Assembly (NCBI GenBank): GCA_009760855.2
Contig: WPIO01000019.1
Location: 2,849,501 to 2,913,500 of the forward strand
Direction: 5' to 3'
Length of the DNA stretch: 64,000 bases
Origin: Cristatella mucedo
Lineage: Eukaryota; Bryozoa; Phylactolaemata; Cristatellidae
The notes below the pieces were generated by a model, which saw only the letters and a program-made list of their open reading frames with translations, was not told where the DNA came from and ran no database searches. Both the position numbers and the translations under genes were made by a program. Shown piece after piece: positions 5,548-64,000 of this stretch. Position 1 is the stretch's first letter. Each line of letters opens with the position of its first letter.

Positions 5548-5656
5548 CTATAAGATCATACGGGCAAATCAAAAAGAAAATCGGAAACAGAACTCTACCA
5601 CGTTGCACGACTTAACAAAGACATTAAAAATTGCTCAAATTCATTAGCAGCCATAC

Positions 5657-6238
5657 CAACTATCATGTAGACCAGTATGCTGAAGAAGCCTCCGAATATG
5701 GCCACGTTAGCTACCGTGCTCAGTGCCGACAGCTTGCGAACCGAATGAATAAATGAGAAGGCCATGAACACTGGAAGAGCAGCCAAAACCAGCACTTCCA
5801 GTGGGGGCCCACGAGACGACGAGGACGCAGTTGGCGCTGGCGACGAGGATGTGCTGTTGTGTTTGCCAAACGCAATAGTGTGGATCGCATTTCCGATAAA
5901 TATACAGTATGACACGCAGAACAGAAATTGAGTTATAAGGAGGCTGAGATCGACAATGAACAATCCGAGCTTTCCATAGCAAAACCTTCCAATGTCGCCG
6001 TAGCTTAACTTGTTCTCAACGTTTCGACGAACTTCCTGGACATTATCGTCGTGCTCACTCAATCCGGTTGCACTTGCGTAATCTGCAACTACTTTCCCAA
6101 CGACGGACCTCTTGCACTTGACGATTAGGTGACAGCAGTGGTCAGTCAAAGCGGCAATAAAAATAAGGCCCAGTATGCCAAGCTGAAACGAGGCGATTAC
6201 AAGCACAGCCGCCGCCACCAGGCCACACAAGCCACCTC
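5657..6238 (-). CDS. SLC36/PAT-like amino-acid transporter, exon 1 of those seen
   Basis: This 582-base exon begins after the acceptor GTGCCTGTAG and ends at ATAGTTG|GTATGG. It codes for about 194 residues with four predicted membrane segments: CGLVAAAVLVIASFQLGILG onward; GLFIVDLSLLITQFLFCVSY; the segment starting LEVLVLAALPVFMAFSF; and ANVAIFGGFFSILVYMIVG. Family landmarks are HxxILVKC (here HLIVKCKR), the VTQLGFCCVYFVF helix (here ITQFLFCVSYCIF) and LRALSxxSxxAN (here VRKLSALSTVAN). The loop after the third helix is Ser/Pro-rich with an NST sequon, so it is probably outside the cell or in the lysosome lumen. The N-terminal GTGLLGLP-containing helix should be in an upstream exon at higher coordinates, which I did not find. 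Confidence 0.85.
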
Positions 6239-6239
6239 C

Positions 6240-6650
6240 TACAGGCACTGAATGCAGGCTGCTGCATGCTGCATGACAACAAATAACATGTTCACGAATC
6301 AATATTCCCGATGTATAGTATATCACCTGCATTGAAACAACAAATATGCTGGCACGTGCAGATTTGTAAGGAGGCGGCAGAAGGATCGTGCACTCAAAGA
6401 TACCGGAGGAACAAAACTGCCAGTGCATAGGAGGCAGTGAGAGGTAGGACCTAGAGCAAATGTGGTCAGTTCGACCACTCAGTCGACAAGCACGAACGAT
6501 TTGCGACTGACAGCATACAAAAATAAAAAGTGATAGTCAGCAAAGTCTAGAGCAAGTGCATCAAAGCCAAAACCTGGCACACAGCGGGAAACTGCCCGGC
6601 AACTGCCGGAAGCCGTCCCACTGACAATGGTGCTGGATTGGGTGCCTGAT
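6240..6650. other. Upstream intron of transporter, no recognised feature
   Basis: Open frame continues on the minus strand to 6428 but lies upstream of a good acceptor (GTGCCTGTAG). It lacks family similarity, so I treat it as intron. Confidence 0.4.
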
Positions 6651-10534: not shown

Positions 10535-12001
10535 AGTTCTTAGACACTTCCTTTTGAGGTATTAGGTTCAAGAGGAGGTTCAAGAGGCAGCACTCCACTG
10601 AAACTGCTTTCCTCCGTGTTAACAAAGACATTCTACCTGGCAACGATGACGGGAATATCACTAGCTCTGCTAGATCTGTCAGCTGCCTTCGACACCATTG
10701 ATCACGAGGTTCTACTTGAACGCTTGAGAACAACGATTGGTCTGGCAGACAAAACACTGGCGTGGTTCAAATCGTACTTATCAAATCGTGTTCAATCCGT
10801 GTCGTATGGGGTTCAGATCTCACAGACGAGACGGGTCTCCTGTGGAGTCTCTCAATTGTCTGTACTCGGTCCCTTGCTGTTCTCCATTTATACTAAACCT
10901 CTGGGGAAAGTGATTAAGGCCCATGGAGTAGGATATCACTTTTATGCTGACGATACTCAGCTGTATGTGTCATTCAAACCATCGGAATCTGCTGCCACAG
11001 CTGAGAAACTGAATGCTTGCCTTGCCGACATTCGATCCTGGATATTGGAAAACTTCTTGAAACTAAATGACAATAAAACCGAACTGGTGCTCGTAGGATA
11101 CCCTAAGCGTGTGGCTGGATTAAAAGGCTTTGCTCTTCTAACAGGTGATGCTGTTGTGCGACCATCACCGCGTGCTCGAAATTTAGGTGTAGTTTTCGAC
11201 AGCTGCCTCAATTTTAAAAGCTTCATTCAAAAGACTGCCTCGTCAGCTTGCCATCACGTCCGATCCCTATCCAAGATTAGGAGCTGTCTTTCACAATTGG
11301 CTTGCAAAAATCCAACTAGCTCCTTAGTTCTGTCTCGGCTTGATTATAGTAATTCCCTTTTGGCTGGACTACCAAAGAAAGCAGCTAGGCTAGTGCAGCT
11401 GGCCATGAATGTGGCTGCAAGGCCAGTCTTCAAGTCCCAGAGGTTTAAGCACGTGTCTCCTTTGCTAAAAGAGCTAGGATGGCTGCCGGTTGAGCAACGG
11501 ATACCGAGCCAAGTTCTTACGCTGACCAGCAAGGCTCACCACGGCTTGGCTCCTTCGTACCTAGCTGAACTGCTGCACCAGTTTCAGCCTCTTCGTGCCC
11601 TCAAGTCCTGTATGGGGACAATAAATTTTGCTGTTCCATTCCTCCGCTTAAAGACCTTTGGCGACAGCAGCTTTAGCTCTGCAGGTCCTAGACTGTGGAA
11701 CTCGCTTCCATAGTTCTTACGCAAACGACAACCACTCTCCTACTGCCGACTGTGGCTCATCCTTTTCAGCAGTCCTGAGCTGTTACTTTCATGCTACTCA
11801 CTACCTCAACTGCTCTGCAGACTCTGCTATGGTTCCCACTTTCTCTTTGTTGCGTGAGACGAAGTCTGTTGGCTACCGAATGCGTACCGAAAGCCGCTTA
11901 GGCAGTGAGTGCGCTATGTAAAACTCTCCTGCGTAACATCCACTTAGTCTTTAAAACTTTTTGGAGTTACAGACGGAGATAAATAACATACATTACATTA
12001 T
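10535..12001 (+). mobile_element. LINE-A non-LTR retrotransposon, 5'-truncated
   Basis: The element keeps part of ORF2 (reverse transcriptase), a C-terminal region and the 3' end. The 3' end shows GTGAGTGCGCTATGTAAAAC, GGAGTTACAGACGGAGATAA and a terminal ACATTACATTA repeat. No endonuclease domain or 5' UTR is seen. Partial copies of the same family lie at 8.6, 12.3-12.8, 16.7-17.2, 40.7 and 53.4 kb, all minus strand. Confidence 0.85.
10591..11713 (+). pseudogene. LINE-A ORF2 reverse transcriptase remnant
   Basis: This encodes the RT domain of a CR1/L2-like non-LTR retrotransposon, which copies the element's RNA into a nicked chromosomal target. Visible blocks: HSTETAFLRV (10591 onward, frame 1), then after a frameshift near 10640, [19 protein letters not shown] (RT motif A region), GVSQLSVLGPLLF (motif B, with the usual GVPQGS altered to GVSQLS), YHFYADDTQLY (catalytic YADD intact) and FLKLNDNKTE. 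The frame ends PRLWNSLP followed by a TAG, where the copy at 17 kb has CAA and continues. The frameshift, the damaged motif B and the nonsense codon make it inactive. The ATG at 10616 is not a natural start. Confidence 0.88.
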
Positions 12002-17229: not shown

Positions 17230-19640
17230 GATGGTAGGGGTGCCATTTGTAGCATTGTCCCCCGGCGCCGATAGGTCATACAACGCCACAGTTTGGGTGC
17301 ACAATCATTTCACTGAACCTGCTTAAATTAATGCCTCCTTCAGCTCGGATAATTAAAGAAGCCTAATAAAATGATCTATGGCGAGAGTCAGTGCTCGACT
17401 TAGCCACCTCGTTAGGCACTAACATTTGCATACCAACATTTACACGGCGGCGGGTCGTGGGGCTTGTCCGCCAAGCAGATTTAAAAAGCTACCTAGGAGG
17501 CGGGTAAAGCACTCTTTTACGGAGCTCAGAAGGCTGCTTGAGCAGTGCAGCGCTCGCGACCAGTGTCGGTATTTATAGGGACCCTATTTTTAAGGACGAT
17601 CGTAAAGTTAAATTTAGTACATAAATAATTGCCGAACCGGGCCTGCGGAGCGCTGCCTCGTACTAGCCAAAAAACTGGCTCAAAAATCAGACTTGTTCTT
17701 ATCACAAAGAGACTATCTGAGCCTCAAATTCAACTGTTCTGCATCAATTAACGCTAATAATAATATTTGTACACGCATTTTTAGTTCCATAAAAAATTAA
17801 ATCTTTTTCGTAGGCACTTTAAATATTCTTGAAAGAAGGCAAGTCGGTTGGAAGTTTTACCGTGTATCACTTCAGCATAAATAAATGCACAAAAAACAAT
17901 TTACATTTAATGGGACGTGTTCTGAAGTACAGGTGTTGAAGTACAGGGTGCACCAACGTGCAGCCTGAATCGCGTCCAAAAAATTCGATGGTCACATCAC
18001 TTGAAGGGAATTCGGATGACAGATGAAAATCTGTCCCTTCCGGATTACGACGTGCCCCGCCGGCGGAGAGAGTAGCTGACCAAGTCAGCAGGGGGTAGGA
18101 TAATCCCCGCCAGCTCCGCTCACCGGCCGGTCTGTGGCTATGCGTCTGGCTGGTTTCTGTCTTCTCCTACTCTCTTTGAATTCCGCTGAGCCATTGCTAT
18201 CCCTAGCGTAACGCAAGTCTGCTCTTCCTTTTTTCTAGCTCTCTTTTTGTACGCTAAAGGGTGCTGGACGCTTTTGTTCGACATTGCTTACAAGAGGGAT
18301 CTAACTGCCTGTGAAGGTACCGCCTGCAGTTGCAGGGGCCGGCTGTTAAACGCAATGACAGCGAAGACCCAGGCAGCCGCTGAAAGCGTACGAAAATAGA
18401 AATTTCCAGCAGGCATTTTTATTTTGACTGACAGCAGACGCGGAGGAGCACGAGGCTGCGCTTATGATATGAACCATAGCAGTGCCGTGCCAGCGATGCC
18501 CGCGTGAAGCGCTCTAGAACGACTTGATGATCAATAGTCGAGGTGACGACTGAGCTTCACCGACAATCCCTTAAGATTGCTGTCTTTCCTCAAGTTGTAT
18601 TACCATTATTATTTATTAGTATTTTGTATTACTATTTTTATTTTATTACTGTTTATCCCCAAGCTTTCGGTCTGCCTTCTGGGCTTTAACCGACCTCGCT
18701 TCCTGTTGAAGCTCGTCCACTCGCAGTCATGTATCTCGCGCGACTCGCTGTCGTGCGCGATGAGCAGCTTTGCTACACTTTGCCCCTTCATCCGATGCAG
18801 CTCGGGCCCCTCTTACATCGGCACTCGCACCTGCTGTCTCTTACGCCTGAGAGCTGAGCCTACCTAAGCACGACGGCGTCTCTGCTAATTTAAACCTCGC
18901 CTCAATTTCCAAACTTGGATCAAAATGATTGGCTGCCGCAGCTCATATATTTTCCATTCCGTTTGAATCGTCAAGTTACACTATAAAAAAATATCTCAAG
19001 TTTTCCCACGCGGACGCACTTGCCGTTCGACAAGTCTCGGGATTGCACGTTCGATATGCTACGACCGGCAGCGCCATACGCCGACAGTGCATAGATAGAT
19101 GTCCTGCTTACGAATTACAATTCAGCAGACGCATTTTATTTACTTTGATCTTATGCTGACATTTAATAGACTAAATCGTATGGCAGCGGTGGAGCAGCGG
19201 AGAGGGGGCTGGGTCCGCGGTTTCTTTCCGCCACTATTGCTAAACCCACCGCCGCCGCCGCGGCGGAGCTGCGACGGACAGCCCGTGTGTGGCCTACGAA
19301 CGGTGTGCGCTTTTTAACCGCTCTTGAGCGGAGGCAAACTTGCGAGCAAGCCGACAATAAACTCTGCCGTCGTAATAGGTCGCATATTCAATAGGGCTCG
19401 GTGATGAAATTATTGCATACCTGTTCGTAAAACTTAAAAAAAGGAAACAAAATTACACAGAAGATGGTTAAATGGAAACGCGTATTCTACTGAGAGAAAC
19501 TAAGACATTTAGTTGATCTTGCCAAACTAAGTAACCAGCTTAATTGCGTCCGGCTATTGTTCATCTATCTTACCCATAGATTCTCCCAGAGTAGTCAACC
19601 CGGCATTTATGCGATCGATATTGCCGAAAGACGAACACTC
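17230..19640. other. No recognised gene
   Basis: AT-rich to mixed sequence with short open frames only. There is a GCC/CGG-rich patch at 19247-19266. I see no tRNA-like heads, LINE tails or supported exons. Confidence 0.4.
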
Positions 19641-19649
19641 TAAAATTCC

Positions 19650-20430
19650 TCGCAGATTCAATGTATTGCGGACATTCACACTTTTACGAAAGCAAGCTTA
19701 CTCAAATTGAGTGACACTAAAACCAACTTACTTTATATGGGAAAACTTCATAGAATTGCTCAAAACTTTGACAGCCAAGCCCTCGAAACGGGTGCCTCCC
19801 GCATATCTCCTATAGCGTCAGTACCAAATCGTGGTGTCCAATTCCAAAGTGGCATTTCACTAGATGACCACGTCAGCTCCGTAGTCAAATCTCCCTGCGT
19901 TCAGCTACGCAATATTTCAAAAATTTCTGGCCTACTTAGAACAGGATAACGCAGCCAAGTTGGCTCACGCATTCGTGATATCCTATCTAGACTTCTATGT
20001 CTCAGCACTTTTAGGTTTTCCAGTGAATGCAATGAGACACCCACAGCTTTCGCAAAGCACGGAAGCCAAGATTGCCTGTCGTGAACGTCGTTACTGCCAC
20101 ATTTGCAGCACCACTAGTCACCGTCCTCTGCTGGCTCCCCATCAAGTAGAGCATTACTCCGCTCCCCATCAAGTAGAGTATTACTCCGCTCCCCATCAAG
20201 TAGAGTACTACTCCGCTACCCATCAAGTAGAGTATTACTCCGCTACCCATCACGTAGAGTATTACTCCGCTACCCATCAAGTAGAGTATTACTCCGCTAC
20301 CCATCATGTAGAGTATTACTCCGCTACCCAACAAATAGAGTATTACTCCGCTACCCAACATATTGAGCATCCGCTTCTTGGTTCTGACACACACTTTTAG
20401 GTACCTTTCATTTTCTCACTTCATCTTACC
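19650..20430 (+). mobile_element. L2-type LINE RT fragment carrying a minisatellite
   Basis: The left part encodes decayed L2 ORF2: LSDTKTNLLYMGK, RISPIASVPNRGVQFQSGI and LDDHVSSVVKS, equivalent to NDDKTNLLVMGK...SPVESARNLGVIFQSDLSLDDHISSTV in the 52.8-kb copy. Then a frame break gives AKLAHAFVISYLDF and CRERRYCHI. Where other copies read CACTGGCTCCCAGTCAAG, this one enters a 27-bp tandem array, leaving into TCTGACACACACTTTTAGG, which matches the following LINE codons. Confidence 0.8.
20134..20375. repeat. 27-bp minisatellite, about 9 units, LINE-derived
   Basis: The unit is close to GCTACCCATCAAGTAGAGTA + TTACTCC. Nine units are visible, the first three with GCTCCCC and later ones with GCTACCC, and the last two drift (CAACAAATAGAG, CAACATATTGAG). 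Because 27 is a multiple of 3 and the unit lacks stops in some frames, both strands stay open (plus repeats APHQVEYYS, minus repeats MGSGVILYL). I do not regard these as genes. Confidence 0.95.
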
Positions 20431-20734
20431 TAGCTGAAATACAGCTTCACCAGTATTCGCATCTAACCGCCCACTCTAGTTACTGAAGTCGTTTAGCTGC
20501 ACCTCGGACCAGCCTCGAATCTTTATTAAACGTGCCTTCAGTGTTCGCATGACCCCAAAGCCAGGAGCTCGCTCCCGACTGAGATCGGGGCGTCGAAAGA
20601 CTTTCCGGCTGTCAAAAAGAAAAGCTAAAAAGTGCACGCGCTCCTTTTCAGAATTTGCTTCTTCCGTTTGAATGTCTTCTTTTCCTCTCACGCGAGCTAA
20701 GGTCGTTTTGCACATTAGCACGAAACCACTGGCT

Positions 20735-20830
20735 CGCTTTATTTCGAGCACCTGTAAAGTGCCTGCGAAGAAATTCAGATCGCTTAGGGCGCTGAAAATA
20801 GGGACGTTTGTTACTATTGTAATTCTTAGT
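20735..20830 (+). mobile_element. Degraded L2-like 3' end
   Basis: GTAAAGTGCCTGCGAAGAAA, TTAGGGCGCTGAAAATAGG and an AT-rich end resemble the L2 tail with many changes. Confidence 0.45.
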
Positions 20831-20839
20831 ATTCCAGCG

Positions 20840-22365
20840 GACAGCTACGCTACGCTGAAGCAGTGGAATGCATATTGCAATTGAAAACAGACACTAAAGG
20901 CAGAGCGCGAGGCTGCCGGCTTGGGTTTCCGGCTTGGGCTGCCGGCTTGGGCTTCCGGCCTCTTCGCCATCGGCGCAGATGCGCGAGAAGAAGCTGCCAG
21001 CTCCAGCCAGCGCCGACTCCTGCGCCCATCACGCCTGTCGCGGCGCCTGTCACGTGACCCCCGCGACCGCTGCTGCGCTTGAGCCACTCGAGCTGGCTGG
21101 AATTCATCGCAGCAGCTCGCCTGGCGTCGCGTACACGTTCGGCTTGTGACGAACGGTCGACTCGTGTGGGACACTAGGGCACTAAGCAGCGTTTGCCTAC
21201 CTGTAATTGATTTAGCGTCCTAAAAGCCTAATGAAGCCTACGGGCGGACGCGAGCACCGATGCACCATCATCGCTGCGAAGTAGCTACCTATCGGCACAT
21301 CGATACGTACATAACAAAGACCTAACGAAGCCGTATATCGCGGTTAGAAGAATGATAATAATAATGATAATATTAATAGGGTCTTTTTAGTTCCGGCTAC
21401 CTCTCGGCACGAACGCCAGCCAAGGTCAGGCCCCGTCTAAGCAGTAAGTGCACGGCACTAACAAGCTGGCACTGTTACTGGTGCGCTGTAGCGGACTGTC
21501 ACGGAAGTCACGTGCAATTGTGTCGCGGAAGTTCTTAGCCCGCAGACGCTGCGCTCGTAGCCGGGTTTACCCAGTGAGTCCGGCTGCCTACGTGCTTCCT
21601 ACCTACCTCTGTCTTACTTCGGTCATTCATTTTTTAGGAAGTGTACGCGGTCGGTCTTCCTTTAAGTCTTGCTTCCTACTCGCTCCACCCCATGGCTATC
21701 ATTGAAAAATTGCCTTTGTTATGAAGGTAGGAAATGGCCCTCTGAGACGCACCTACCAGTGAATGTTAACCTTACACGGTTGCATTTATCGCCCGCCACC
21801 TCAATATCGGATTCCCGTGCGACTAGCCCATAGATTCTCGTGAACAGGGACTCTCGAAGAACGCTTAGATGATTTCACCGGTCGATTCATCGGCCATACT
21901 TTTTTAACCGACGACAAAGGCGCACCAATGACGGTGCACACTATTGATCGTTTGCCAAGTCCTGCTTAAGCCTTGGCCAAAAAGTAGACTCGCGTTTGGC
22001 TGACGAGTCTTCTTCCAGTCTTACGCAATTATTGGACTGCCGGGCAGTATTGGTAGCGTATATAACGAAGACTCGAGTAGGTAGGGAAGCTAGGCTAGCC
22101 GTGTATCTGGTTTAGGGTTTATCTCGCGACTCGTCCGTGCCAATGGGCGACAAATACCAGCGAAGCTGGGCTTCAAAGCGCAGCTGGCGAGTCGAAGAGG
22201 CCGTCTCGATACATGCAGATATTTCCCCGCTAGTGACTGAACGCGCGGGAGTGAAGGTGCAGCGCGACGTATCAGCCAGCCACGATGGCTTCTGCAATCT
22301 TTCTTATTCGCAATTCCTTAGTTACAACGGCTTGCAAACGGTCATGCGTTAATCCAAGGCTCCGC
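20840..22365. other. No recognised gene
   Basis: Contains short near-duplicates of GGCTTGGGCTGCCGGCTTGG at 20915-20960 and a short AAT-rich tract at 21350-21385. The open frames on both strands in the GC-rich part (20845-21174) are not supported by motifs. Confidence 0.35.
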
Positions 22366-24165: not shown

Positions 24166-25495
24166 TGTAACGCCGAAGGCTCGGCGGAGTAAGCTTGACC
24201 TGCCGCTTACCTAGCGGCGTAGCCTATCGCCTAATGCCGTTCAGTGCGCGCCTCCGCGCAATAAGCTGGCCGCCACGAAACGAGCGTTTCTGGCGCTGAC
24301 CTGCTTACCGTTACTAAAGGGGGTCGTGAGTCCGCGGCGTGAATTGGAAGCAAGACACACAAATTGGGGATTTTACTGAACTTTATTCGCAAGCGCACAA
24401 AGTCGCTGCGCGTCTAGTTCAGCTTTTATCTCCACACTCCTCGCACGTTCAACGCTCTTGCGGAGGGAATACTCCTCTACACTAAGCGCGACCCGGACCC
24501 TAAACCCTAACCGGTGAACTAGGAATCCGTTCCCACCTGTGCCGAGGGAATACCCCAAACACGCCAACTTAAACACTCGAGCGGAGGGAGTACTTCTCCA
24601 CACTGAAGTGCGAACCGGAGTCTAAACCCTACCCGGTGAACTAGAACTCGGTTTCCACCAGTGCGACCGGAATACTCCACACACGCCAACTCAAGCACTC
24701 CTGCGGAGGAAATACTTCTCCACACTGAAGCGCGACCCGGAGCCTAAACCCTACCCGGTGAACTAGAGCTCCACACACGCCAACTACGCCTAGCTCGCGC
24801 CGGCAAATCCCTATGCCGAGAGCACATGCTAGCGCGCACACACACGAAACAAAAGAAACACAAAACACGAAAGAACACACAAAATGCCAGCTCGGGCGCG
24901 ATACGACCGTATTCGGTGGGGTTCCACCGAATCCTCCTAGCGCTGTCTCGTCTTGTTCCGTCAATCGTCAGCGGACAGCCCGCCCTCCTCCCTCGCTTTT
25001 AGAGAAACGAGTGCCCGACGGCGTCGAGGCGCAGAGCCGGACCAAAGACAAAAGACACGAGGCAAAAGACCCAGAGCGAGCGTCGCTCGACTGTTAAATA
25101 CTTGGCTGAGACAATGGGGCAAGAGCTTAGTGGTATTGGGCCCGGACACCTTGGCCCATTACGGAAAGGAATGACTACCGTTCCCAGGCCACTGGCAGGG
25201 CACCTCGGTCCAGCTTGAATGGCGAATGGGTTCCAGACGCTTCTTTCTTGGGAAGAGGGAAGGCGGGGGTTGACAGGCCAGCCAACATCTATTAGCAGCT
25301 TCCGCGAGTATCGGACCAATTCTAAAGGCCGAATCGCCGCTGCTCGTCTTCGAGCTTCCTGGCCTGCTCCTAAGCGCTTCCTCTCTAACCGCACTGACGC
25401 TCCTCTCTGGCTCACTGCTCCAGGACAAAGGGGCTCTAGCCCGCCGCCGAACAGCTCTTGTTCGCGCTAAAATTCAGCCAAAGCCAGCAGGGCGC

Positions 25496-34440: not shown

Positions 34441-34960
34441 TCGTGCCCAAGCGTGAGCTCAGCCGACACAAACAGGCAGCCTATCGCTCATCGAGTTGGT
34501 CCTCCACAGGACTCGATTCAAGCAGTCCAGCTCGTGCCCCTACCGAGCCCTATCCGACAGCGAGGATTGGCAGACAGCAGGAGCAACGGCCTCGTGGTGC
34601 TGTCGCGTGGGGATTAGCTGCCCCTGCACTAGTCTATCATAAGCTTACTTGGACAGTAAACACTGCTGGGTGAGTCAAGGGCTCAGGTGGGGTTTCTACG
34701 TGGCTGCCTGCAGACTCGACCTCTGAGCTCCTACAGATGCTTGATCGTCATTGTCTGCTTGTCTCTTCCACCTCAGATTTTCATCTGGCAGAAAGATTGC
34801 AGCCAATGGGAGACGATCTAATACCTTCCCCCCCCCCATCCACGAGCATGACATGAACTGACTGCACTTACTAACTGGCAGTAACGACGTTCAGATTGTT
34901 CATACTCATGCTGCAGGCTTTTCAGGCAAAGCCAAAATTCACACCAGCAGCAAGAGGTTC

Positions 34961-35231
34961 TGCTCCTACTCTGCTGCTCCTGCTCTGCTGCTCCTGCTCT
35001 GCTGCTTCTGCTCTGCTGCTCTTGCTCTGCTGCTCTTGCTCTGCTGCTCTTGCTCTGCTGCTCCTGCTCTGCTGCTTCTGCTCTGCTGCTCTTGCTCTGC
35101 TGCTCCTGCTCTGCTGCTCCTGCTCTGCTGCCCCTGCTCTGCTGCTCCTGCTCTGCTGCTCCTGCTCTGCTGCTCCTGCTCTGCTGCCCCTGCTCTGCTA
35201 CTCCTGCTCTGCTGCTCCTGCTCTGCTGCTC
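34961..35231. repeat. 15-bp minisatellite, about 18 units
   Basis: The unit is CTGCTCTGCTGCTCC with variants ending TTC, TTG or CCC. It makes all plus frames open (Leu/Cys/Ala/Ser repeats); I do not call a gene. Confidence 0.95.
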
Positions 35232-50429: not shown

Positions 50430-51370
50430 AAAAGGATTACTACAAAGCTAACTCAATAGTTATGGGCAGACCAAGTGCGATTCAGTAATTGGAAAGCCAA
50501 ACGCTCGCATATCTCCTGTCGCATCTGTACAAAATCTAGGCGTCATGTTCCAATGTGACTTTTCTTTAGACCATCACATCAGCTCCAATGTCAAGTCTGC
50601 CTACTTTCAGCTACATAACATGGCTAAAAGTTTCGGGTGTGTTTAGACAGGCATACTAAATCTAAATTGATTCATGCGTTTGTGGCATCTCGTCTCGACT
50701 TTTGTAACTCACTGCTTGCTGGTCTACCGGCCTGTGCAATCAGGCGCTTACTGATGGTGCAAAACTATGCAGCTAGGCTTGTCTGTCGTGAGCGTCGCAG
50801 TTGTCACATCACACCACTTCTCGCTTACCTGCACTGGCTCCCAGTCATGCAATGCATGCGAATTCAAGGTTTTGTCACTCACTTTTAGGTCTCTTCATTA
50901 TTTGACTCCTGACTATCTATCAGATCTACTTCCCCACCAGGTTAGGCATCGTAACATTCACTTTTCTGAATTAAATTATTAAACTAAACGATGTATGAAT
51001 CCTCAAATTCTTTGGAGACCATCCCTTTAGTTCATATGGTCCAAAAGCATGGAGCTCACTCGCGAGACTGACGTGTGACATCCCCTGAATTGACAACCTT
51101 TAAAAAACCTAATGACGCAGCTATTTATCGCAGCATTTGGTGGGTCCATGTGATTCGCCTTTGTGTGTTCATGCGTACTCACACTATGCATGCTGCAACT
51201 AACAGTATCTGCATGCTGACCTTGTGCATGTCACCTCTGTTGCTTTTATCAAGCAAAACACCGCTCACCATTCGATCGTGTTTCTTTTGCAGCAAATTTA
51301 AAGCGCCTAGAAAGAGATTGAATTCTCTGAGGGGGCTTTGTTGTCAAGTGTATTATTATTATTGTTATAA
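50430..51370 (+). pseudogene. L2-type LINE, decayed RT C-terminus plus 3' end
   Basis: Codons for VMGRPSAIQ-like sequence, then LDHHISSNVKSAYFQLHNMA, SKLIHAFVASRLDFCNSLLA, GLPACAIRRL and CRERRSCHITPLLAYLHWLP. Frame breaks lie between the blocks. The 3' UTR and tail (GCGCCTAGAAAGAGATTG, GAGGGGGCTTTGTTG, (ATT)n) are complete to 51368. No RT catalytic motif remains. Confidence 0.82.
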
Positions 51371-52419: not shown

Positions 52420-53360
52420 ACTTAGGAATGCAGACATGGGTAGAGTGTCTCTGCTTGTTTTGCTCGATCTTTCGGCAGCTTTTGAGACCATCGATCACAA
52501 AGTTCCTCTAGAGCGCCTCTCATCTCGCCTGAGCATCACTGGCAATGCTCTGCAGTGGTTCAGGTCCTATCTCAGTAGGAGACTCTAGAGTATTGACGTG
52601 AATGGACAAAGATCATCTGAAGTACCTCTGAAATATGGAGTACCTCAGGGCTCCGTGCTAGGTCCGGTTCTTTTCACGGTTTATACTCTCCCTCTTGCTG
52701 ATGTGATTGCCAAGCACAATCTAGGCTTTCACTTCTATGCGAATGACACTCAGTTGTACCTTTGCTTTGATGCCTCTCAGCCTTGAAGCACCTCAAATTC
52801 TCTCAACTCACTTACTGCATGCATTGATGACATCCGCAAATGGATGGCAGCAAATTTTCTAAAACTAAACGATGATAAAACTAACTTACTAGTTATGGGC
52901 AAACCCAGTGTGATTCAGAGATTGGAAAGGCTGACTCTCAAAATTGGCTCTGCCAGCATATCTCCAGTTGAATCAGCTCGAAATCTAGGTGTCATATTCC
53001 AAAGCGACCTCTCGTTAGACGACCATATCAGCTCCACAGTCAGGTCCGCCTATTTTCAGCTTCATAACATTGCTAAAATTCGGGCTTGTTTAGATAAGGA
53101 TACCACGTCCAAGTTGGTCCATGCATTCGTGACATCTCGTCTCGACTTCTGCAACTCACTGCTAACTGGCCTACCAGCATGTGCGATCAGGCGATTGCAG
53201 CTGGTGCAAAACTCGGCAGCTAGGTTTGTCTGTCGTGAGCGTCGCGTTGCCACATGACTCCACTTCTCGCCGACCTGCACTGGCTACCAGTCAAGCAACG
53301 GATTGACTTCAAGGTCTTGTCGCTCACTTGTAGGTCCCTTTATTCTATGGCTCCAGCCTA
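52420..53360 (+). pseudogene. L2-type LINE ORF2 (RT), best-preserved copy
   Basis: Reads [20 protein letters not shown] (motif A), then a stop, [20 protein letters not shown] and [14 protein letters not shown] (motif B intact), [14 protein letters not shown] (catalytic YADD changed to YAND), a stop, then LTACIDDIRKWMAANFLKLN, LGVIFQSDLSLDDHISSTVR and FVTSRLDFCNSLLTGLPACA to CRERR, with a frameshift and HWLPVKQRIDFK. It ends abruptly in the AP...L region at 53360 with no tail. Inactive because of two stops, the frameshift and the lost catalytic aspartate. Confidence 0.88.
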
Positions 53361-59849: not shown

Positions 59850-59892
59850 CCTTGCAGCACGTGCAAGGTGCCTAGAAAGAGATTGAGAATTT
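59850..59892 (+). mobile_element. L2-type tail fragment
   Basis: TTGCAGCACGTGCAAGGTGC + CTAGAAAGAGATTGAG, cut before GAGGGCGC. Confidence 0.65.
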
Positions 59893-59949
59893 GCCTGTCT
59901 AAGCAAACCCGAAACTTTTAGCCATGTTATGTAGCTAAATGTAGGCAAA

Positions 59950-60545
59950 TTGACTGTGGTGCTGATGTTGTCGTCTAATGAAATGTCTTTTTTGGAACAT
60001 GATACCTAGATTTCGTGTAGATTCAACAGGATATATTCTGGCAGAGCCAATTTTGAGTGTTAGCCTTTCCAATTTCTGAATCATGCTTGGTTTTCCATAA
60101 CTAGTAGGTTGGTGATATCTTCATTTAATTTAAGAAAGTTTGCTGCCATCCATGCGCGGATGGCATCAATACATGCTGCAAGGAAGTTGAGAGAATTCGA
60201 CGTGCTGGAGCGCTGGGTGGGATCAAAGCAAAGGTACAACTGAGTGCGATCTTCGTAGAAGTAAAAGCCTAGATTGTGCTAAGCAATTACATCGGCAAGA
60301 GGGAGAGTATACATCGTGAAAGAATGGGACCAAGCACAGATCCCTGAGGTGCCCCATATTTCAGAGGTTCCATCCGGTGATCTTTGTCTATTCACATGAA
60401 TACTCTCGAGTCTCCCACTGAGATAGGACTTGAAGCATTGCAATGCAGTGCCAGTGATGCCCAGGAAAGATGAAAATCACTCAAAAAGGACTTGGTGATT
60501 GATAGTATCAGAAGCTGCCGAAAGATCAAGCAAAACAAGCTTACT
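59950..60545 (-). pseudogene. L2-type LINE RT fragment
   Basis: On minus, from [19 protein letters not shown] (motif A, about 60540) through [11 protein letters not shown] (motif B) and FYEDRTQLYLCF (YADD damaged) to the DDNISTTV end (about 59960). Frames are broken several times. Confidence 0.8.
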
Positions 60546-60596
60546 TATCTAAAAGTTGTTTATATGCGTGGTGTTTTGTACTCGAGTCATTAAATA

Positions 60597-61310
60597 GAAT
60601 AATAATAATAATAATATTAATAATTCACTTGATAAAGCGCCCTCAGATAACTTAATCTCTCTCTAGGTGCTTTACATTTGCTTTAAAGTGAAATGCAATT
60701 GAATGGTAAGTAAAATAATGCTTGAAAAACAAGCGAAATGAATAATATGGTTAGGGGTTACATGCACAGGGTCAGCATGCAAATGTGGTTAGTGGCAGCA
60801 TGCACAGTGTCAGCACTCATAAGCACATCAAGGACGAATCACATGGACCCACTAAATGCTGTCCTAAATAGGTGTGTTTTTAGGTTCCTTTTAAATGTGG
60901 TCACGTCAGGGGATGTTCTGACGCAGGTCGGGAGGGATGTCCAGGCTTTGGGAGCATATGAACTAAAGGCACGGTCTCCAAAGGATTTTAGATTTGTACG
61001 AGGTATTTGTAGACTGTTGGATTCCGAAAAGCGGGTGGTACGATGCTTGGCCTGATGGGGTAGAATATCTGACAGATAGGCTGGAGCCATAGAATGAAGG
61101 AACCTAAAAGTGAGCGACAAAACCTTAAAGTCAATCCGTTGCTTGACTGGGAGCCAGTGCAGGTCGGCGAGAAGTGGAGTAATGTGGCAACTGCGACGCT
61201 CACGACAGACAAGCCTAGCTGCCGAGTTTTGCACCAGCTGCAATGGCCTGATCGCACATGCTGGTAGGCCAGTAAGCATTGAATAGGAATACATCTTCCA
61301 GAGCAAGGCT
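60597..61310 (-). pseudogene. L2-type LINE RT C-terminus and complete 3' end
   Basis: The 155-codon minus frame includes LTGLPACAIRPLQLVQNSAA, RLVCRERRSCHITPLLADLH, WLPVKQRIDFKVLSLTFR, FGDRAFSSYAPKAWTSLP and FKRNLKTHLFRTAF, the best-preserved ORF2 C-terminus in the window. The 3' UTR and the tail (AATAATAATAATAATATT on plus, 60599-60625) are complete. 5'-truncated. Confidence 0.88.
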
Positions 61311-62260: not shown

Positions 62261-62544
62261 GGGAAAGCCGTCTCGGACTAGATGCGTATTAGCTGAGAAT
62301 TAAATGACGCATGGTCATTGTAGTTAGTCACCGTATCAGGAAGCAAGTTCAAGACTTATGGTGCAAACGAGCTTAACGCTCAGTCCCCGAAAAAATTCAA
62401 ATCAGGGCAAGGAGGATAGGTGGAGGCTGGTACGAGCGAATGGTGAAATGATCTGTAATCCAGAAAGGGGATCTTAAATAAATAAGTACTAGCTGATTGA
62501 ACAGCATTTTCTGTTCTTAATCTCTATCTTATTTACCATATATA

Positions 62545-62699
62545 TTCGCCCACCAGGCTAAGCATCGTACCAATCGCTTTTCGGAATCTAAGCGTTTAAC
62601 TATACCTTGCACGAACCTGAAATCGTTTGGAGACCATGAATCTGAAATCGTTTGGAGACCACGAACCTAAAATCGTGTGGAAACCATGCCTTTAGTTCG
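62545..62699 (+). mobile_element. L2 fragment with 25-bp triplication
   Basis: CCACCAGGCTAAGCATCGTA and CTTTTCGGAATCTAAGCG match the L2 C-terminal codons (PHQAKHRTxxFSES). Then AACCTGAAATCGTTTGGAGA-type units repeat three times at period 25 (62615, 62640, 62665). Confidence 0.75.
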
Positions 62700-63345
62700 T
62701 TTAGCTCCCCAAGCACGCTTGACTTCGATTCTGTGCTTGATTAAAAGCCAGCGAAGCTCAGACTGGCGTGGTGTGTTTCGGCAGCTACACTGTATATGAC
62801 AGATCAGACGAGCTCCTGAGTAGTGCACCAGTTGAAGACGACTAAGTGCACATGCCAGAAGTCCTGAATAGAGGAAACTTAGACTCGACGTCGAAAAGCG
62901 AGAACTAGGTTGGGGGTCGCACTCTTGCCTAAGCAGTCTCTGATGTCTTTTAGCTAAAAGTAGGCCGACTCGACAGTGGAGTAAATCTTTAAATTCAATG
63001 ACAAGTCCTCGTGGAATAATATGCCTAGATTGTGGGGCAGATGTCAAGGGGCTATGTGAGATACATTAATCTGAAGGGATATGTCTTCCATTACCTGGGC
63101 GATACTGGATCAGCTGTAACTATTAGCTTGGTTGAATCTTTGCTAAGCTTCAGGGTGTGTGAGTAGCCATCCAAATGCGAATGTCATCAATGCATCGTTC
63201 TCGTAGGAATTAAGAGAGTCTGCTGAGGAGTGAGGCTTAGAATGCATTCGAAGGAGAGCCTAGAGCTGAAGGTAATCAGGATGGAAATGAACGGTAAGAT
63301 TGCGTTTGGCGATATTATCTGCCGGAGGGAGACCATAGATAGTGA
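62700..63345 (-). pseudogene. L2-type LINE RT fragment, minus
   Basis: On minus: YGLPPADNIAKRNLTVHFHP (catalytic YADD lost) at about 63340-63270, then FLYSGLLACALSRLQLVHYS, GARLICHIQCSCRNTPRQSE and LRWLLIKHRIEVK to 62715. Equivalent to ...HWLPVKQRIDFK. Older and more diverged than the 52.5-kb copy; no 3' tail. Confidence 0.75.
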
Positions 63346-63349
63346 AAAG

Positions 63350-64000
63350 AAGGAGGCCTAAAGTCGAGCTCTTGGAGCTTCATTCGTCCGCATGCGGTAA
63401 CGAGGGCCGCGAGCCGGAGGGTCGAAGTCTTGGCTTCGCTGGCTTTCTGCTCGCCGGTCGCGTGGCTTGTTCGGCGATCGTGAGATAGAAAAGAAATTCG
63501 TCGCGATATATTGCGACCACTACGAGCTCCCCACAGAGCAGGCGGGAGATTGCTGTGCGCTTGTTCTTTCCTGGCTCGAGGGCCGTGAGACGCGCCAAAG
63601 GTCATGGTCGGGAAGCCGGAGCCGCCAGGTCTCGAAGCCGCCACTACGGACGGAAAAGCCGCATCTGCGCCGCTGCTGAAAGCAGTCGCTATAGCCGTAT
63701 TCAGCACGGATTCTCGTGATCCGCTTAAATTCTGATGCTGCTGCAAAATTACGGAAGGACGTACGCCTCACTATCAGCGTGCTCTGACACCAGACCTGCG
63801 AATTAAAGCCATCGATACTGTCAGACGCTGGGAGCGGATGTCTTAACGGATGCGATGAAAGGCGGTAATTTGCTGCATTTTTGCTTGCACACACTGTTTC
63901 ATCGATTGGGACACTTTCGTAATCGTGCTGTCGACGGTTGCACGAAGCAGCTATCCTAAGCAAGTATTGTGGCGAGGCCCTGCACATGCGCTCTTTCGAT
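63350..64000. other. No recognised gene
   Basis: A minus frame of 143-155 codons (63746-63315 and 63987-63520) runs to the window edge. It contains no motif I know. Confidence 0.3.

Follow-up and report, generated by a model that had tools for sequence, protein, structure and literature searches.

A nine-unit array inside a LINE copy

The window, a stretch of 64,000 nucleotides from the genome of the bryozoan Cristatella mucedo (contig WPIO01000019.1), contains at positions 20134-20376 a run of nine head-to-tail units of 27 bp, which a unit-by-unit reading resolves into eight full units and a diverged ninth. Tandem Repeats Finder reports the array at 20134-20357 with a period of 27, 8.3 copies, 94% matches, no indels and a score of 385, and the original prediction of about nine such units is borne out. 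A 27-bp unit repeated nine times falls within the minisatellite range. The array sits within one decayed copy of a non-LTR retrotransposon (LINE) spanning approximately 19625-20789, with one alignment at 60% identity extending to 20828. The locus is laid out as follows:

19625..20133, + strand: 5′ part of the host LINE, decayed, from the C-terminal region of the reverse transcriptase (blastn to related loci; tblastn to copies in the window)
20134..20160, + strand: unit 1, its first 21 bases LINE sequence in register, with the likely ancestral C kept at unit position 19
20161..20349, + strand: units 2 to 8, with T at unit position 19 throughout and, in units 4 to 8, A at position 4
20350..20376, + strand: unit 9, bases 1 to 21 (to 20370) aligning to the unit and followed directly by LINE sequence
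20371..20789, + strand: 3′ part of the host LINE (blastn to related loci)

Pairs among units 1 to 8 show 0 to 4 base differences. For unit 9 the count against these eight is 9 to 13 of 27, of which six fall in its last six bases, where the sequence has already left the repeat; the TACT that precedes CCGCT in the other units is absent from it. DNA folding of the array gave a z-score of −3.36, a value to which we give no weight as evidence because the shuffles used for comparison do not preserve the 27-bp period.

Other tandem repeats are present in the window as well. A 14-bp array at 34960-35231 (19.4 copies of CTGCTCCTGCTCTG, 94% matches) outscores the 27-bp array studied here, a 122-bp unit occurs in 2.6 copies at 24451-24772, and a 13-bp array of 3.8 copies lies at 20911-20959, about 120 bp past the end of the host LINE. 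Related LINE reverse transcriptases are present as truncated copies at 10616-11713, 50485-51065, 52481-53349, 59877-61306 and 62290-63376, the first of which retains a 365-aa open frame with an RVT_1 domain. On the − strand, at 5595-6428, a 277-aa open frame carries an amino acid transporter domain (Aa_trans, E 1.2e-18).

Identification of the host element comes from a long relative in the same genome, locus L058, which contains an RVT_1 domain (E 1e-31) and, among solved structures, matches LINE-1 ORF2 chains (best E 4.4e-13) and R2 (best E 2.3e-10); it is therefore a non-LTR retrotransposon. The assignment of the host LINE to the L2 clade, made in the original prediction, is putative.

The left flank of the array matches LINE copies of the window at 53056-53304, 50607-50857 and 61240-61133, in register, and the right flank resumes at 50854 and 61124, about where the left matches end (50857 and 61133). 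We joined the two flanks at GAGCAT, leaving out the array, and aligned this collapsed site to 59 related loci from the same assembly. Of 39 other places scored with the left flank we took 29, and of 150 scored with the protein from the copy at 60839-61306 we took 30, that copy among them. A locus was counted as crossing when at least one alignment ran through the join with at least 20 query bases on each side. All 59 loci crossed it (best E 2.5e-100), with identities of roughly 60 to 68% in the crossing alignments. Against the LINE consensus, the collapsed site shows no gap at the join and neither lost nor extra LINE bases.

The unit, too, is LINE sequence for most of its length. As predicted for its start, bases 1 to 21 align in register to the LINE consensus at the site of the array; placing the last six (TACTCC) on the LINE requires a gap and mismatches. 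The predicted exit of the array into LINE codons was likewise seen, the codons around ACTTTTAGG being those of the consensus.

Unexpanded seeds across the genome

Searching all 572,011,866 bases of the assembly with the unit pattern at up to three mismatches yielded eight matches, which are units 1 to 8 of the array, and none elsewhere (backward control, 0). No genome-wide satellite with the same unit and independent of the LINE thus appeared in the 572-Mb assembly, and the whole array used as a query found one place. The original prediction had also proposed looking for the seed in other LINE copies; here the exact seed pattern with its LINE continuation is present, single-copy and unexpanded, in at least 10,055 places (5,053 forward and 5,002 reverse; control, 0). 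Counts of large families such as this are lower bounds, and stretches read as N or left unassembled could hide copies. With the unit found, at up to three mismatches, in the array alone and the unexpanded seed elsewhere, a mobile or genome-wide satellite is excluded in this assembly.

An exact second seed core 3 to 33 bp after the first was found in five places, the studied array and four others, none of the latter an array of its size. At locus L074 there is a perfect two-copy duplication of 27 bp in another register (Tandem Repeats Finder, 2.0 copies), and at L070 one of 16 bp (1.9 copies). L072 has a duplication of about 46 bp, for which Tandem Repeats Finder gives only a weak 23-bp row (3.0 copies, 60% matches), and L073 an irregular one with no row at the site. 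The LINE context of these four was judged by eye from the letters, and one of them could be due to chance because the control search itself had one match. The L074 duplication (L074:1491-1544, GACCTGCACTGGCTACCAGTCAAGCGA) overlaps the LINE stretch of the seed and by eye has no homology at its ends.

Extending the distance to 34 to 64 bp gave three matches, the studied array included (control, 0). Inspected by eye, C110:1843121 has LINE-like letters and C51:146898 is a repeat of another kind. Diverged duplications escape these counts because the patterns were exact. Tandem Repeats Finder returned 92 rows in the 59 related loci. Three fall within LINE alignments, which total 46,240 aligned bases with overlaps counted twice, and these three have 2.0 to 2.4 copies each.

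As a further set of mostly older relatives, we assembled 23 rows, comprising 21 places found by the right flank plus L024 and L078, both of which repeat places among the 59 loci (L078 within L011). Nineteen of the 23 rows cross the site without an array; the other four, whose alignments start either beyond the site or no more than 28 bases from it, were left uncounted.

These surveys bear on where the array came from. Insertion of a pre-existing satellite into the LINE copy is very improbable: apart from the absence from this assembly of any other copy of the unit at up to three mismatches, for which we rejected a foreign insertion, the unit aligns with LINE sequence at that very site, and the collapsed site closes without lost or extra LINE bases. 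The array might instead have been present already in a LINE source copy and have been spread by retrotransposition, and the family is certainly large, with 139,134 first-look candidates (150 of them scored). Yet the 59 of 59 related loci and 19 of the 23 mostly older rows (the other four uncounted) cross the site without an array, and by exact pattern only the four other places have a second seed core within 3 to 33 bp, none of them an array of comparable size. We accordingly rejected carriage by the LINE family, to which we assign next to no likelihood.

Maintenance as a protein-coding repeat, with units reading APHQVEYYS or GSGVILYLM, has in its favor that open frames of 146 aa and 127 aa cross the array. 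Neither has a Pfam family match, the sole listing being PGM1_C at E 0.93, under the cut-off and at chance level. The original prediction held that the 27-bp period keeps frames open on both strands, and two + frames (one broken in unit 9) and one − frame indeed run through the array. The LINE's own reading frame does not, being closed by a TAG in each of units 1 to 8, so the array is not coding in the LINE frame, and the frame of the supposed repeat differs from it. Nor did a meaning of the open frames find support, since unit 2 taken as a tandem leaves four of six frames open and 5000 shuffled units average 3.65. Open frames need no further explanation here because the period is divisible by three and the unit is stop-free in those frames. 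With no Pfam family match and frame openness at shuffle level, we rejected a coding function, which we regard as scarcely credible, and saw no sign of function for the array.

Variants, timing and the first duplication

Differences between the units retain some history. At position 19, units 1 and 9 have C, as do 13 of 22 old rows, and units 2 to 8 have T, found in 3 of 22. At position 4, units 1 to 3 have C (14 of 21 old rows) and units 4 to 9 have A, which is the predicted 5′-to-3′ shift from GCTCCCC to GCTACCC. Its direction agrees with the older relatives, although A predominates (54 of 68) in a set that favors younger copies; A as the ancestral state, taken from that set, was withdrawn in view of the older rows. 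T9A and G13A occur only in units 8 and 9. An old state at the edges with a change across the inner units is probably the trace of local slippage or unequal exchange.

The C19T change gives each of units 2 to 8 a GAGTA-N-TACTC inverted repeat, which units 1 and 9 are without. One could speculate that the HWLPVKQR stretch of about 30 bp, the only LINE stretch surveyed in this way, acts as a weak hot spot of short tandem duplication, that the studied array is the one that grew, and that the inverted repeat may have aided its growth; we consider this a long shot.

Differences of the local copy from the consensus of the older relatives number 53 in 173 positions on the left (0.306), 4 in 21 in the seed and 47 in 209 on the right (0.225), figures that depend on the choice of relatives because these were picked by similarity and that are biased in that most rows were picked by the right flank. 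They replace an earlier flank divergence of 0.31-0.35 from a consensus weighted to young copies. The 23 rows themselves each lie 10 to 24% from the consensus of the others. All nine units have in common the four seed differences (positions 7, 8, 14 and 17), and units 1 to 8 differ pairwise by a mean of 9.5% over their first 21 bases. Because of these two observations, we suggest that the array, or its latest round of homogenization, is younger than the LINE insertion; the four shared differences suggest that amplification came after part of the LINE decay. Some of the shared changes may be subfamily states and not local decay, as they also occur in old relatives (position 7 in 6/21, 8 in 10/21, 14 in 5/22 and 17 in 4/22), and changes common to all units could also have spread after the birth of the array.

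As for the first duplication, the longest exact word shared by the two array ends is 4 bp, although later mutation could have erased flanking direct repeats. A guided first duplication, itself a compatible variant of birth in place, would have used the short repeats GCTCC and GCTTC, 23 bp apart. The unit so created would have been 23 bp long, with TACT added later, in the manner of the noncontiguous-repeat slippage model. Such an origin would account for the 4 bp missing from unit 9, which has no TACT and then continues with CCGCT, in common with the start of a further unit; a shorter terminal unit is given as the key feature of that model in the part of PMC3389668 available to us. However, GCTCC and GCTTC agree in only four of five bases, with no exact direct repeat above 4 bp, and the terminal units counted in that part of PMC3389668 are at most 10% shorter, which 4 of 27 exceeds. 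The sequence is explained about as well if some 28 LINE bases were duplicated bluntly and one base was lost later. We therefore treat the guided duplication as a tentative option, somewhat short of an even chance.

Birth in place and comparison with known arrays

Taken together, a unit restricted to a single locus, flanks that belong to one LINE copy and a seed that is unexpanded elsewhere make it very probable that this single-locus minisatellite arose in place within one old, dead LINE copy, in agreement with the original prediction of birth from LINE sequence. In outline, the LINE would have inserted first and its copy begun to decay. About 27 bp of the HWLPVKQR segment (CTGGCTCCC...) would then have been duplicated once, via slippage or end-joining repair, and the longer homology between the two copies would have permitted more rounds of slippage or unequal exchange until nine units were reached. 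A variant that arose in one unit would have spread to adjacent ones, with the two edge units keeping C19. Duplications resembling the first step do exist elsewhere, as the perfect 27-bp pair in L074 and the 16-bp one in L070 illustrate. This is a clean case of minisatellite birth, with the starting state still present at some ten thousand places of this genome, and it is this preservation that renders the order readable in outline, from LINE insertion through decay and first duplication to growth.

An origin of tandem repeats from transposable elements has been described before (PMC6947457, PMC3389668 and PMC9659126, in the portions available to us), and the array studied here has what defines such a minisatellite, namely a unit from the element at the site and the same element copy on both sides, contiguous without the array in 59 of 59 loci. 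The available portions of the reviews PMC6947457 and PMC9659126 name Alu, B1, MaLR and Gmr9/GmOgre as sources of minisatellites. In all of these, as here, a short piece of a dispersed element was amplified in tandem; those listed are SINEs and LTR elements, whereas here it is a LINE reverse transcriptase, a difference in source and not in kind. Closer still are the satellites derived from LINE ORF2 in the same portion of PMC9659126, chicken HinfI (CR1 3′ UTR plus part of ORF2) and seal Pvc 20 (LINE-1 ORF2). Their units likewise come from LINE coding sequence, but they are listed there among satellite repeats, while our array consists of nine 27-bp units at a single locus. We found no report of an array from this LINE segment in the literature searched, which is weak evidence of absence.

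For the human genome, the available part of PMC3389668 gives 7,276 tandem repeats derived from transposable elements, 159 of them with a shortened terminal unit and 300 with flanking direct repeats of 5 to 20 bp. A shorter terminal unit is also seen in our array; in contrast to the 10% limit used there, it is 4 of 27 bases short, and no flanking repeat exceeds 4 bp. The birth models of Haber and Louis (1998) and of Taylor and Breden (2000), as represented in those portions of PMC3389668 and PMC6947457, have a first duplication followed by growth on the longer homology, an order like that proposed here. The Haber and Louis model, as given there, requires flanking direct repeats of 5 to 10 bp, whereas here the longest exact shared word is 4 bp. 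The birth of this array leaves existing knowledge of how such arrays arise unchanged. Because tandem repeats derived from transposable elements, LINE ORF2 included, have already been described, the array is an ordinary, well-preserved example of a known route by which repeat arrays arise.
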